IMG/VR virus record: IMGVR_UViG_3300008259_000023
Span: 1-64,000 of that record
Length of the DNA stretch: 64,000 nt
Direction: 5' to 3' (one strand)
From: a virus
Below are positions 4,069-59,324 of this stretch, in pieces. A program made the translations under genes and the position numbers. Each line of letters opens with the position of its first letter. Within the stretch, counting starts at the first letter, position 1. The notes under the pieces were generated by a model. It ran no database searches and was not told the DNA's origin. It saw nothing but the letters and a program-made list of their open reading frames with translations.

Positions 4069-4255
4069 CCCTCTTATTTATCTTATTTTCTATTTCGTAC
4101 TTGACCTGTGCTACGTAGTTGAATGATTCGGTGGAACCTTGTAGTGCATCTGCACCTCTATACAAGCTCTTGATGAATTCCTCATCATTTTGAGCTTTCT
4201 CTCTCAGCTTGACAAGTTTTTCAACTTCTGGAAGTATTCTGCGATTAAATGACAT
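4058..4255 (-). CDS. hypothetical small protein
   Basis: Encodes 65 residues, mostly helical and charged (RRILPEVEKLVKLREKAQ, VAQVKYEIENKINKRDEN). The start shares one base with the stop of the polymerase C-terminal gene (TAATG), so it is translationally coupled to it. Function unknown. Confidence 0.6.
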   Translation of the reverse strand: MSFNRRILPEVEKLVKLREKAQNDEEFIKSLYRGADALQGSTESFNYVAQVKYEIENKINKRDEN

Positions 4256-5412
4256 TAGAATAAGGCTGTTATGGTAAATAAATTAGGACTGATAGGATTA
4301 TGACCCATTGCTTCAATGAATCTATTTATCGGATCTAGAATCGTTTTGGTGAATTGCATATCATAGTCAATCGCCGGTGCAAATTCGTATGGGTATGTTC
4401 CTTGTGAATAAGCAAAAACATTGCAGTCTGTGACTTTTTTGGTTTTAACGAAATACCATCTGACCTTTTCTCCACTCTGTATTAGCGGGTATTTACTTTT
4501 GTATTTAGAATTATTCAGAAGGAAATTGTGGAATCCCGAAGCTCTTACGTGGATAGGACAGCTGCCTGCTACCTCGAGAGAGGTCGAATCGTTGAGTATA
4601 AACTTCTCGTAGTTATTAGATGTGATACCTGCAGAAATTCTATCGGGTTCTTGAATCTTGAATTCCTTCTTGATATCTTTGATCTCTTTAACGAAATTCT
4701 TTAACTCAAATTTTGAACCATGAGTAAAGATGTATTTGGTTAAGTAAATCAGCTTCTCCCGAACAAAAGGAGGCGTACCGCCCTTTACCATCTCAACACC
4801 AGTGAATTTCAATTCTTTCAAACTCTGGATAGTTATCCCAGAGTCATAAGCGAGGTTGACAACGTATTTCTTTTTTCCTAAGAAGATAGCATTGTGTGAT
4901 AGTGTCTCAAGCTCAAAATCCTGGCAGTTTTCTGTGCCCCATTTTTTAGCGTAGATATTCAAGCAATTCTTGAGATAATCGTTTATACGGTACTCGTTTA
5001 TTTTTAAGATCAAATCCATTGGAGTTCCATTCCAATCACACGATTTGACAACCTCCTCAAAAGAAACATAGTTCGAATCAGTGTCAATGTATATTACTAG
5101 AGGTCTAGCAATTCTTCGAACCTCTGTCAGACCAATCTTCTCGTGTAACTCCTTGTCTATATGCCAATGTTCATTGAAATACCTATTGATAATCTTCTCC
5201 GCAAACTTAATCAAGTCTTGTCCCTGCAATGTTACAGCTTCCGCCACATCGGGATTCTGACAAACGAAAAACGAGTTTCCTACAGCTCCATAAATCGAAT
5301 TCATCGTTAGCTTAACCGCCTGCTCTTCGTTCTTCAGTTCATTCTTAAGATTGGTTAGACGTTCTATTTCTTTTCTGAGATCATCCTTTGTTTTTGTTTC
5401 CATCTCCATCAT
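4255..5412 (-). CDS. DNA polymerase family B, C-terminal subunit (split gp43, part B)
   Basis: Encodes 385 residues covering the second half of a T4-type replicative DNA polymerase: the second fingers helix, palm and thumb. Residues 7-30 (KTKDDLRKEIERLTNLKNEL) form a charged helix, followed by motif B with the dNTP-binding Lys at K34 (KLTMNSIYGAVGN). Motif C is YIDTDSN, with catalytic D110 and D112. The exonuclease domain and motif A are absent; they are encoded 13.7 kb away at 19065-20480. Together the pieces total 856 residues, close to T4 gp43 (898). The C-terminus (NLFTITALF) could be a clamp-binding tail. Split gp43 is known in some Aeromonas T4-like phages, where the pieces lie close together. 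Neither piece can polymerise alone. Confidence 0.9.
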   Translation of the reverse strand: MMEMETKTKDDLRKEIERLTNLKNELKNEEQAVKLTMNSIYGAVGNSFFVCQNPDVAEAVTLQGQDLIKFAEKIINRYFNEHWHIDKELHEKIGLTEVRRIARPLVIYIDTDSNYVSFEEVVKSCDWNGTPMDLILKINEYRINDYLKNCLNIYAKKWGTENCQDFELETLSHNAIFLGKKKYVVNLAYDSGITIQSLKELKFTGVEMVKGGTPPFVREKLIYLTKYIFTHGSKFELKNFVKEIKDIKKEFKIQEPDRISAGITSNNYEKFILNDSTSLEVAGSCPIHVRASGFHNFLLNNSKYKSKYPLIQSGEKVRWYFVKTKKVTDCNVFAYSQGTYPYEFAPAIDYDMQFTKTILDPINRFIEAMGHNPISPNLFTITALF

Positions 5413-19064: not shown

Positions 19065-20480
19065 CTATTTGAAATTTTCCAATTCTTTTTGTAATTTGTC
19101 AATTTCTAACTGAAGTGCTAACATTTGATCCTTGGTTTTTCTTCTTTTTGAGTATAGATCTTTTACAATCGTGCGGAGAATAGGTTTTTCTTCCTCCCCT
19201 CCAAAATATGCTCCTGAAGCAGTTCTTACCCATTCTTCTTTTGGATCCGCTACATTCTTTCCCTTATATGCTTCCGGCGAAATCCCCCACTGCACGATAG
19301 CGTTAGGATAAAGTGATGCAAAATCGTAACAAGCTACCCATTCATGTAATCCTACAGTTGGTTCCTTTACGTAACCACCAGCGAACTTGACGTGATTATC
19401 ATCTTTAGGGATATTCAGCAAAACCTGTTTTCTCTCTAAAAATTTTCTCAACATCATTACCTCCGTTGACCAGACTGGCGAAAGTGCACGGGATATCTCC
19501 ACTCCAGTTACTCCGGCAATCTTAAAATACGTCAGCATTGTTTTCAGCTTCTGATCGATGTAGTGCAGAAGAACACAGTCAACCGCGTTATAGAAAATGA
19601 ATTTTTCGAAGTCCGATTGATAAAGATCTCTAAGACTTCCGCTGTATTCGATCTTCTTCAGACCGATAGCTTTTTCTCCAACGTAGTCCAATCGATTGCT
19701 TTCTTTGATCTTGATCACCCTGTCCCACTTTTTATAGATATCGAGATAATCGACCATTAGTAAGTGTTGGGGTAATTGATTCTTTCCAATTAGATATCTG
19801 GAAGCTGAAATAATAGCAGGGTCGATATTGAGTCTTTTTGCTCTATTAACCAAATAGGGCCAGTCATATCCGAACCAGTTCCATCCAGTAATCAAAGCCA
19901 TTTTAGGAGCTAGATCTTTAAAGAACGTATAGAGCATGTCGAATTCTGAAACGAACTTTCTGTATTTGAAACTCCATTCCTCTCCGAACTTTTCAAAATG
20001 CGTGTTAAGCTTTTTATGAATCGATCCGATCTGCTCGCTTGATAGATCATCGAGACCCAAGACAATCATCTTGTTCTTGTCCGTTGCTATACCGATACTG
20101 AGAACTCGATTTTTGGCGTTTTCTGTGTCCAATGCATCTTTCATCTCCTCAGTAATCTCAACCTCAATATCGACAAAGTATTTGCGAGGATTTTGGTGTG
20201 CCCATAGTGGAGCAGTTAATTCCCGATCAGCTTCCTCGAGTATTTGTGCAATGCGGTATTTGTCTAATTTGTTAGACTTTACTTTTTTGACATGGCCGCC
20301 GTCCCAAGATCTCCAAACAGGATCTTTCTTGGCGTCATTATGCGGGCACTTCTCCCAGACGAACCTTTCCTCTTCTGGGATTGGAACGTTGATGAATGTT
20401 GGTTCCCCCTCTTCGGTAAAAGTAGAAATGTGCAGGTGGTCTTTCTTAGCTTCAATATCAACTATCATATCTGGATACAT
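19065..20480 (-). CDS. DNA polymerase family B, N-terminal subunit (split gp43, part A)
   Basis: Encodes 471 residues: N-terminal domain, 3'-5' exonuclease and first palm/fingers portion of a T4-type polymerase. Exonuclease residues are intact: D104 and E106 (YFVDIEVEI), D206 (GWNWFGYDWPYL) and Y297/D301 (FYNAVDCVLL). Motif A has catalytic D386 (CYDFASLYPNAI). The first fingers helix carries the triphosphate-binding basic cluster DLYSKRRKTK (441-450) and continues as a coiled-coil-like helix (LQLEIDKLQKELENF), then stops. Motifs B and C are on the separate subunit at 4255-5412. The break falls at the fingertip, between the two fingers helices, so the halves could join through their paired helices. 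Confidence 0.92.
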   Translation of the reverse strand: MYPDMIVDIEAKKDHLHISTFTEEGEPTFINVPIPEEERFVWEKCPHNDAKKDPVWRSWDGGHVKKVKSNKLDKYRIAQILEEADRELTAPLWAHQNPRKYFVDIEVEITEEMKDALDTENAKNRVLSIGIATDKNKMIVLGLDDLSSEQIGSIHKKLNTHFEKFGEEWSFKYRKFVSEFDMLYTFFKDLAPKMALITGWNWFGYDWPYLVNRAKRLNIDPAIISASRYLIGKNQLPQHLLMVDYLDIYKKWDRVIKIKESNRLDYVGEKAIGLKKIEYSGSLRDLYQSDFEKFIFYNAVDCVLLHYIDQKLKTMLTYFKIAGVTGVEISRALSPVWSTEVMMLRKFLERKQVLLNIPKDDNHVKFAGGYVKEPTVGLHEWVACYDFASLYPNAIVQWGISPEAYKGKNVADPKEEWVRTASGAYFGGEEEKPILRTIVKDLYSKRRKTKDQMLALQLEIDKLQKELENFK

Positions 20481-21915: not shown

Positions 21916-23814
21916 TTATTTTGATTTGGAGCCTACTTCTTCGAATTCTACATCCTCGAAATTCTCTTGACCCTCTTGGGTCCCGGTTGTACTCGTGCTT
22001 TCGCTTTCAGAATTTGGAGTTGAGTAGATACTAGCAGAAATCGCGTTCATCAATTTCATACACTCATCAATTTCTTTTTCTAACATATCGATATTCTCGG
22101 CATCTTTCAATTTCCTGATTTCGGATATCTTGTCATTGATTTTTGATTTTTCGTCATCGGAAACTTTGTTCCCGAAATCATCCAAAGCCTTTTCCGACTG
22201 CATGCAAGCATTCTCAGCATCATTAATAATCTGGGATTTTCTCAGTCTTTTCTTATCTTCCTCCTCGTTTTCTCTTGCCTCGTTTTTTAGTCTTTCGATT
22301 TCCTCTTCAGAAAGCTTTGATCCTGATTCGATCCTCACGTTTTGTTTTTTTCCAGTTCCTTTGTCCAAAGCAGTCACGCTCAAAATACCATTGGAGTCAA
22401 TATCGAAGGTAACCTCGATCTGAGGGATTCCTCTCATTGAAGGTGGGATATCTGTAAGCTGAAATCTTCCTAGTGTTCGGTTGTCTGATGCCATGGGGCG
22501 TTCTCCCTGTAGAACGTGGATATCAACTGCTGGCTGATTATCCACAGCGGTTGAGAACATTTGGCTTTTCTTCGTTGGGATTGTTGTATTAGATTCAATT
22601 AGTTTTGTAAATACACCACCCATAGTTTCAATACCCAAGCTTAATGGTGTAACGTCAAGAAGTAGTACGTCTTTAACCTCTCCACCTAAAACTCCTCCTT
22701 GAATTGCTGCACCGAGACTAACCACTTCATCTGGATTTACGCTCTTACTTGGTTTTTTACCAAAGAATTTTTCGACCTCCTCCTGGATCTTAGGGATTCT
22801 ACTTGTTCCACCAACCAGGATCACTTCATCAATATCCGAATTTAACAATCCTGCTTCTACCATTGCTGTTGAGCAAGGAGCCAATGATCGCTTAATTAGA
22901 TCATCTATCATCTGCTCAAATTTTACTCTTGTTAATTTAGAGACGAAGTGTTTAGGACCTTCGCTTCCTGCTGAAAGGTATGGTAAATTGATCTCAGCTT
23001 CAACAGAAGAGGAAAGTTCAACCTTTGCCTTCTCCGCTGATTCTCTAACCCTCTGTAAAGCCATTGCATCCTGACCAATATCGATCCCGCTTTCGTTTTT
23101 AAATTCTGATATGATCCAGTCAACAATTCTCTCGTCAAAATCATCACCACCCAAATGAGTATCCCCGCTGGTTGAAAGAACCTCGAATACACCAGAACCA
23201 ATTTCTAGAATTGAAACGTCGTGGGTACCTCCGCCGATGTCAAAAACAACTACCTTTTGGTCTTTGTCTTTTCTGTCCAATCCATAGGCTAGTGCTGCAG
23301 CGGTTGGCTCGTTGATAATTCTCAAAACTTCCAATCCAGCAATTTCGCCCGCTTCTTTTGTTGCCTGTCTCTGACTGTCGTTGAAATAAGCAGGCACGGT
23401 GATCACTGCTTTGGAAACTGTTTCTCCCAGGTAATCTTCCGCAGTCTTTTTCAGATTCTGTAAAACCATAGCAGAAATCTCTTGAGGGATATACTCCTTC
23501 TGGTTTGCTTCGATCAAAACTTTATCACCAGTTCCTTTTTTAACCTTGTAAGGCATTCTTTGAGCTTCCTTCTTCAGCTCAGAGAATTTAGACCCGATAA
23601 ATCTTTTTACAGAAAATAATGTTTCAGTTGGGTTGGTCACGGCCTGACGTTTTGCTGGATCGCCGATTTTAATTTCTCCATTTTTAAAACTCACAATACT
23701 TGGAGTTGTTCTCTTTCCTTCGTTGTTAACGATTACTACAGGTTTTCCACCCTCTAAGACGGAAACACAAGAATTTGTTGTTCCTAAATCAATACCGATA
23801 ATTTTATTACTCAT
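21916..23814 (-). CDS. dnaK: molecular chaperone DnaK (Hsp70)
   Basis: Encodes 632 residues, the full bacterial length. ATPase domain: [67 protein letters not shown]. Linker [19 protein letters not shown]. Substrate-binding domain and helical lid are complete, ending in an acidic [14 protein letters not shown] tail as in cellular DnaK. The sequence is close in style to Bacteroidota DnaK and was probably taken from a host. It would work with the phage DnaJ at 8026-9045; no grpE is visible in the window. Upstream lies a 136-bp region with direct repeats. Confidence 0.97.
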
Positions 23815-26483: not shown

Positions 26484-26690
26484 TTAATCTAGTACTGCTT
26501 CTATTTTACTCTTTGCTACATTCACGACCTCATAAGACATCGTTGTTTCTCTAAAATGCTCGGCAACTTTCGTTTCTACTTCTAGAACAGATTCAGCTAC
26601 CACTAAAAATTCAGCTTTGGTGTAAGCCGGTTCTCCTTTGCGATTTAACTCGCCTGTGTCAATGTTTACTTTTGTGTTGTAATAAGCCAT
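26484..26690 (-). CDS. hypothetical small protein
   Basis: Encodes 68 residues, probably a small alpha/beta protein (FLVVAESVLEVETKVAEHF; YEVVNVAKSKIEAVL). No family recognised. First gene of the run to 23951, led by a GATATATA octamer 6 bp upstream of its start and directly after a terminator. Confidence 0.65.
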   Translation of the reverse strand: MAYYNTKVNIDTGELNRKGEPAYTKAEFLVVAESVLEVETKVAEHFRETTMSYEVVNVAKSKIEAVLD

Positions 26691-26696
26691 ACTTGC

Positions 26697-26704
26697 TATA
26701 TATC
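26697..26704 (-). promoter_or_regulatory. candidate late promoter octamer GATATATA
   Basis: Minus strand reads TGTGGATATATAGCAAGTATG, 6 bp after the terminator stem of the histone H1-like gene and 6 bp before the ATG at 26690. With such spacing the mRNA would be leaderless or nearly so if the octamer is a -10 element. Confidence 0.6.
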
Positions 26705-26710
26705 CACAGC

Positions 26711-26738
26711 AAAAAAGCAGTCCGAAGACTGCTTTTTT
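26711..26738 (-). terminator. hairpin terminator after the histone H1-like gene
   Basis: Perfect 12-bp stem AAAAAAGCAGTC / GACTGCTTTTTT with a CGAA tetraloop and a T-run in minus orientation. Confidence 0.88.
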
Positions 26739-26763: not shown

Positions 26764-26943
26764 CTAAGCTACTTTGTTCTTAATTTCTTGTACTTCCAAA
26801 CGCAGATCCTGCGAAAGCTTTTTGATCTGTTGCAAAGAAGTGCGAAGACGTGTGCCTGCGCTGCTGTTACCCTTGTCGTAGAACTTGATAGCATCCTGCT
26901 CTGCAGATTCCAACAACGCTTTTAATTGATTGAATTTCTCCAT
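26764..26943 (-). CDS. Bacteroidota-type histone H1-like protein
   Basis: A 59-residue protein translated by hand from this gap: starts MEKFNQLKALLESAEQDAI, continues KFYDKGNSSAGTRLRTSLQQ and ends LEVQEIKNKVA. GNSSAGTRLR followed by a Lys/Gln-rich helix is the signature of the Hc1/histone H1-like proteins of Bacteroidota. It has no lysine-rich tail. Such proteins bind DNA nonspecifically in the nucleoid. In a phage it could compact DNA or be packaged. It supports a Bacteroidota host and transfer from one. A strong terminator follows and the next gene is on a separate promoter. Confidence 0.85.
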   Translation of the reverse strand: MEKFNQLKALLESAEQDAIKFYDKGNSSAGTRLRTSLQQIKKLSQDLRLEVQEIKNKVA

Positions 26944-26997: not shown

Positions 26998-27540
26998 TCA
27001 ACGACTGATTATCAAACTTTCAGGGTTTGGACCCTGCTGTACTGACCACTCATCACCAAGAAATTGTGATGCGGTTACCTTCATGTCATCTATATAGTCA
27101 CGATCTGGGAAATCAGCATTGACCTGCATTTCATCGAAAATTCTGATAACCTGAGGATTATTCTGGAGGTAATCGAGCAAAGCTTGTGCGCAAGTTTCCA
27201 ATAATCTCGTAGCCATCATTCCTTTAACCACAAATTTCTCCTTATTCAATAGAGGCACATCGGCTTTATCTATTGCTAGGTCCTCTAATAATTGCTCAGA
27301 GATCTTGTTCAATCTCATAACAGTATAAGAGTTTTTAGGACCGGGTGTGTCTTGGAATTCCGAGTATTTACCCAATGACAGGAAGAAGCAATTCTCGCTC
27401 TGATCCTCATCTTCAACCTTGAAAAAGTAGTTGTAGATGTTGCCGGTTCTTTTCTCCAAAAATGGGAGAGTTCCGAACCCATCGGACTCATTCACCCCGT
27501 TGGTGAGGAAAGAATCGTAAGAAAGAATGTGCTTTGTCAT
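26998..27540 (-). CDS. leader-tagged protein, unknown function
   Basis: Encodes 180 residues. Leader MTKHILSYDSFLTNGVNESD: VNE before Ser fits the prohead protease consensus. The mature part has beta-rich segments (GNIYNYFFKVEDEDQSENCF), helices (KISEQLLEDLAIDKADVPLL) and an acidic C-terminal region. No family recognised. GATATATA lies 13 bp upstream. Confidence 0.75.
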   Translation of the reverse strand: MTKHILSYDSFLTNGVNESDGFGTLPFLEKRTGNIYNYFFKVEDEDQSENCFFLSLGKYSEFQDTPGPKNSYTVMRLNKISEQLLEDLAIDKADVPLLNKEKFVVKGMMATRLLETCAQALLDYLQNNPQVIRIFDEMQVNADFPDRDYIDDMKVTASQFLGDEWSVQQGPNPESLIISR

Positions 27541-59316: not shown

Positions 59317-59324
59317 TATATATC
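59317..59324 (-). promoter_or_regulatory. candidate late promoter octamer GATATATA
   Basis: Minus strand reads CTCGATATATATTCAACAGC, 28 bp before the ATG at 59288. Located in the 46-bp space between divergent fibre and phoH genes. Confidence 0.4.

Follow-up and report, generated by a model that had tools for sequence, protein, structure and literature searches.

Identity and conservation of the gene

The gap between positions 26691 and 26997 of the window (the whole stretch of 64,000 nucleotides that was analysed, nearly the whole of a 64-kb virus record) raises the question of whether a genuine gene for a histone-like protein lies there and, if so, what its product would do for the phage. 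The first-pass annotation had placed in this gap a Bacteroidota-type H1-like gene of only 59 residues carrying the signature GNSSAGTRLR, and had proposed that its product could compact DNA or interfere with the host nucleoid. An ATG-to-stop ORF running from 26943 to 26764 on the minus strand was found to occupy the gap between the genes at 26484-26690 and 26998-27540 (Table 1), and the signature is located at residues 25-34. The profile search suggested for the Hc1/histone H1-like family was significant, as the protein matches the Pfam Hc1 model (PF07432) along its entire length (E = 7.9e-23, 80.5 bits against a gathering cut-off of 23.5 bits, model positions 1-57 of 57). The linker-histone family was absent from the Pfam scan of the protein, and a search of PHROGs v4 with it gave no match.

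Table 1. Features in and around the Hc1 gene of the window
Feature	Position	Strand	Evidence
C-terminal half of DUF4494 (PF14902), 68 aa, fixed downstream neighbour of Hc1	26484..26690	-	Pfam 25.3 bits (cut-off 27, just under); synteny
GATATATA, late-promoter-like element before the next gene (26484-26690)	26697..26704	-	strand bias of the motif
Intrinsic terminator, 12-bp stem, UUCG loop, T run	26711..26738	-	folding; script found an 11-bp perfect stem
Hc1-family (PF07432) small protein, 59 aa	26764..26943	-	Pfam match, synteny, purifying selection, AlphaFold hairpin
Promoter-like element GAAAC-N17-TAAAGT, about 21 nt upstream of the Hc1 start codon	26965..26992	-	upstream comparison
180-aa protein without Pfam match, conserved upstream neighbour	26998..27540	-	synteny, 41-46% identity in most relatives

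A comparison with the 80%-identical copy of contig L003 gave a pN/pS of 0.15, and dN/dS values between close relatives range from 0.015 to 0.15, being mostly below 0.1; these ratios indicate that the phage gene is under purifying selection. A chance ORF is excluded by the Pfam E-value, these ratios and the constant place of the gene in a gene block. An identical copy is contained in a 116-kb contig of the same phage (L002). The relatives are 56-63 aa long in phages and 58-65 aa in bacteria, so the length of 59 residues stands while the impression of an unusually short protein does not: this is the usual length of the family, neither truncated nor odd.

The core KGN..A[GA].R.R is shared by the phage protein and its relatives (124 distinct sequences). 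Over the same set, in phages and hosts alike, R32, R34, Q38 and R48 are conserved in 100% of the sequences and K20, K24, K41 and Q45 in at least 95%. The phage protein has a net charge of +3 and a pI of 9.45. Net charge varies from 0 to +6 among the phage copies (mean +2.1) and averages +3.8 in the host copies, and at least about half of the copies have a pI above 9.

Distribution and ancestry

The family was found in 148 of the 248 genomes sampled from Bacteroidota (the phylum of Sphingobacterium), mostly as a single copy, and in one Bacteroides only among 14 control genomes. The best bacterial relatives of the phage protein are likewise from Bacteroidota, with 56-66% identity, and relatives occur on at least 192 IMG/VR contigs. 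The family assignment and its Bacteroidota character are thus borne out. As a pointer to the host phylum the gene is supportive; alone it is not decisive, because a Synechococcus phage has a weakly matching gene annotated as histone H1.

In the 124-row tree, a branch (91/88) has the syntenic phage copies on one side, with the host copies apart from them, which is moderate evidence only, as the alignment of 59 columns gives little resolution. Tree and synteny together indicate that the phage gene represents an old, vertically inherited phage lineage of the short Bacteroidota Hc1-type protein. They also rule out a recent capture from a host, within the limits of so short an alignment.

Gene block and neighbourhood

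The Hc1 gene belongs to a jumbo-phage gene block and is conserved within it. The recurring order is RNA ligase, (exonuclease), 180-aa gene, Hc1, DUF4494 and genes of 317, 136, 75, 226 and 632 aa, and dozens of IMG/VR contigs, among them contigs of 270-434 kb, carry this block completely or partially. Within the block Hc1 usually exceeds the genes on either side in conservation, showing mostly 54-69% identity against mostly 41-46% and 46-60% for the latter. The 632-aa protein (21916-23814, minus strand) matches phrog_22485 very strongly (832 bits), and its full-length identity to the counterparts in relatives of the block is 69-70%. In other phage lineages the neighbours of Hc1 (ribonucleotide reductase, glycosyltransferase, aminotransferase and HAD hydrolase) gave no functional hint.

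In the window, Hc1 sits in the replication and nucleotide-metabolism region. The replication genes are T4-like and include a split family-B polymerase, topoisomerase II subunits, ribonucleotide reductase, helicase, primase, SSB and exonuclease. The polymerase is encoded by two minus-strand genes about 14 kb apart (19065-20480 and 4255-5412), which match phrog_262 positions 112-496 and 494-840, respectively.

The strong terminator that had been noted beside the gene was also recovered: its stem begins 25 nt past the Hc1 stop codon, and the fold of 26763-26695 has an energy of -20 kcal/mol (z = -4.1).

Promoter-like elements

Two classes of promoter-like element were distinguished around the gene. 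The motif GATATATA occurs 13 times on the minus strand of the window against 2.0 expected, and once on the plus strand. The minus-strand sites are at 59324, 45260, 38083, 31551, 27561, 26704, 24964, 21851, 19040, 15012, 13020, 3808 and 838; ten of these lie 5-39 nt upstream of an ORF start, and the motif is also found in the relatives L003-L067. Its strand bias and placement make it the probable late promoter of this group of phages. Though it precedes many neighbouring genes in the window, GATATATA was not seen in front of Hc1.

Hc1 has instead an element of its own. Among the 30 distinct upstream regions compared within the syntenic group, 26 contain its counterpart GAAAC/GGAAC-N15-20-TATAA, against 0.6 in shuffles. 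The TATAA-like element ends 14-28 nt before the Hc1 start codon in these upstream regions; the window has only a weak -10 half, the degenerate TAAAGT. As the motif was derived from the same upstream regions, independent support comes from its coding-strand bias in four large relatives, where 68 sites lie on the coding strand and 19 on the other, compared with 27 and 15 for a reversed-pattern control (the sums count overlapping matches; the strand that carries Hc1 was treated as coding, and in each relative it is also the one richer in sites). In the genomes behind L004, L029, L042 and L048, GAAAC-N16-18-TATAWW appears as a promoter-like class with strong coding-strand bias. The GAAAC/TATAA class precedes a UvsX-like recombinase gene in one relative. 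Since GATATATA is missing before Hc1 and a GAAAC/TATAA element is present in its place, Hc1 probably does not belong to the late genes; the motif is directly observed, and the expression timing is deduced from it.

Two other candidates were set aside. A Bacteroidota sigma-type promoter, TTG-N19-TATTTTTG (27001-26972), is probably coincidental, because the pattern occurs 4 times on the minus strand against 2.1 expected and the upstream comparison favours GAAAC/TATAA. The T4-type TATAAATA showed no clear enrichment (4 against 2.4).

Predicted structure and possible function

AlphaFold predicts a two-helix hairpin (helices 2-24 and 27-58, no strands) with a mean pLDDT of 96.5. Reasoning from the positions, heptad spacing would bring R34, Q38, K41, Q45 and R48 onto a single face of helix 2. 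Foldseek searches of the hairpin against PDB and BFVD returned nothing at E <= 0.001. The best viral structure match is BFVD A0A1V0SJN2, a 131-aa Klosneuvirus protein (E 6e-3, 32% identity); this protein may contain an Hc1 domain, which would place the domain in a protist-infecting giant virus. A small-terminase identity suggested by the fold hits was rejected, as none of these has a significant E-value and genes of the family are common on bacterial chromosomes.

The best reading, to which we give a probability of roughly 45%, is a nucleoid-type role in which the basic stripe is the putative contact surface. By analogy with chlamydial Hc1, the hairpin would probably dimerise or oligomerise via its hydrophobic face. 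The basic and glutamine stripe of helix 2 (R34, Q38, K41, Q45, R48), together with K20, K24, R32 and K55, would most likely contact nucleic acid. The protein is probably expressed from a promoter that belongs to it and differs from the late-like ones of the genes on both sides, and such a non-late-like promoter makes action inside the cell most likely, rather than packaging as a virion protein. It would thus most likely be an architectural, nucleoid-type protein of the infected cell, placed on phage or host DNA and acting alone or together with the host homologue. Counted in favour are the full-length Hc1 match, the hairpin, the invariant residues, the charge of +3 with pI 9.45, the low dN/dS, the single host copies, the jumbo-phage core block, the own promoter-like element, whose class also stands before a UvsX-like recombinase gene in a relative, and the replication region. 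Counted against are the absence of the DNA-binding part of chlamydial Hc1, the modest net charge and the lack of a significantly similar solved structure; in addition, the conserved basic residues could serve salt bridges of the oligomer instead. The histone-like interpretation stands for the family and the host phylum. DNA compaction by the phage protein, or interference with the host nucleoid, is not established, because only the N-terminal part of Hc1 is present and the Lys-rich, DNA-binding C-terminus is absent. The literature searched contained no functional study of the short Bacteroidota proteins.

The phage protein may alternatively join host Hc1, with the dimer interface kept, so that mixed oligomers would rewire or disable the host protein. 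This is possible though somewhat unlikely. The conserved core common to phage and host copies (56-66% identity), the single copy in most Bacteroidota having the family and the non-late promoter-like element are consistent with it, and phage-carried H-NS oligomerisation domains, which are stated to relieve host H-NS repression, offer a precedent (PMC3097231). However, the host copies are equally short, so the phage copy is no truncated poison version, and its distinct lineage in the tree gives no hint that it closely mimics one particular host. A broader form of this idea, that large Bacteroidota phages keep a dedicated early/middle Hc1 copy to mix with host Hc1 and reorganise the host nucleoid, is speculative and unlikely; if true, the mixing would be the Bacteroidota counterpart of phage proteins targeting H-NS.

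The missing DNA-binding half and the modest charge would also fit a family that is no nucleoid protein at all, for example an RNA- or protein-binding adaptor whose histone name was inherited through similarity to the Hc1 dimerisation domain. The invariant basic stripe and the pI above 9 in so many copies speak against this, and we consider it decidedly unlikely. Very unlikely is a virion or packaging protein condensing phage DNA for the capsid. Such a role was put forward for moraphages (PMC12619734), and the fold weakly resembles the hairpin of helices in T4-like small terminases (E 1.5, not significant). Yet the protein is without a Lys-rich tail, the late-like motif of its neighbours is absent before it, and recognisable structural genes are absent next to it.

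This study adds a further phage member of the family, its conserved gene block and its dedicated promoter-like element to the Hc1 genes already known in Bacteroidota jumbo phages (PMC12619734). The histone label is no proof of DNA compaction. As the short family is present in more than half of the sampled Bacteroidota genomes, the phage protein, being conserved, provided with its own promoter-like element and easily expressed, offers a way into the function of the family at large.

Comparison with known systems

In chlamydial Hc1, according to the passage of PMC2848022 that cites Pedersen 1996, dimerisation is the task of the conserved N-terminus and DNA binding that of the Lys-rich C-terminus. 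The dimerisation region aligns with the phage protein (residues 4-49 to model positions 7-51 of 121), whereas the phage protein ends at residue 59 without the C-terminal region; its NCBIfam match to the HctA equivalog (NF051889) is partial and weak, with 19 bits (E 0.0018) far under the cut-off of 100. The eukaryotic linker histone H1 has a winged-helix globular domain, whereas the phage protein is predicted to form a two-helix hairpin. The histone H1 gene of Synechococcus phage S-SRM01 (QPX48246.1) aligns over 35 residues at 48.6%, but it is a weak match (E 0.02) from a cyanophage with other gene neighbours.

The moraphages, for which Hc1 genes were reported in 2025 and genome compaction was suggested (PMC12619734), are likewise large phages of Bacteroidota with the same Pfam family; their reported sizes are 200-307 kb, whereas the relatives found here reach 434 kb. 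The short Bacteroidota proteins of Pedobacter, Mucilaginibacter and Sphingobacterium share with the phage protein the Pfam model, the invariant residues, a comparable length (58-65 aa) and 56-66% identity. The phage copies differ from them in being somewhat less basic, in standing on their own branches (91/88 for the syntenic group) and in belonging to a phage gene block with a phage promoter-like element.
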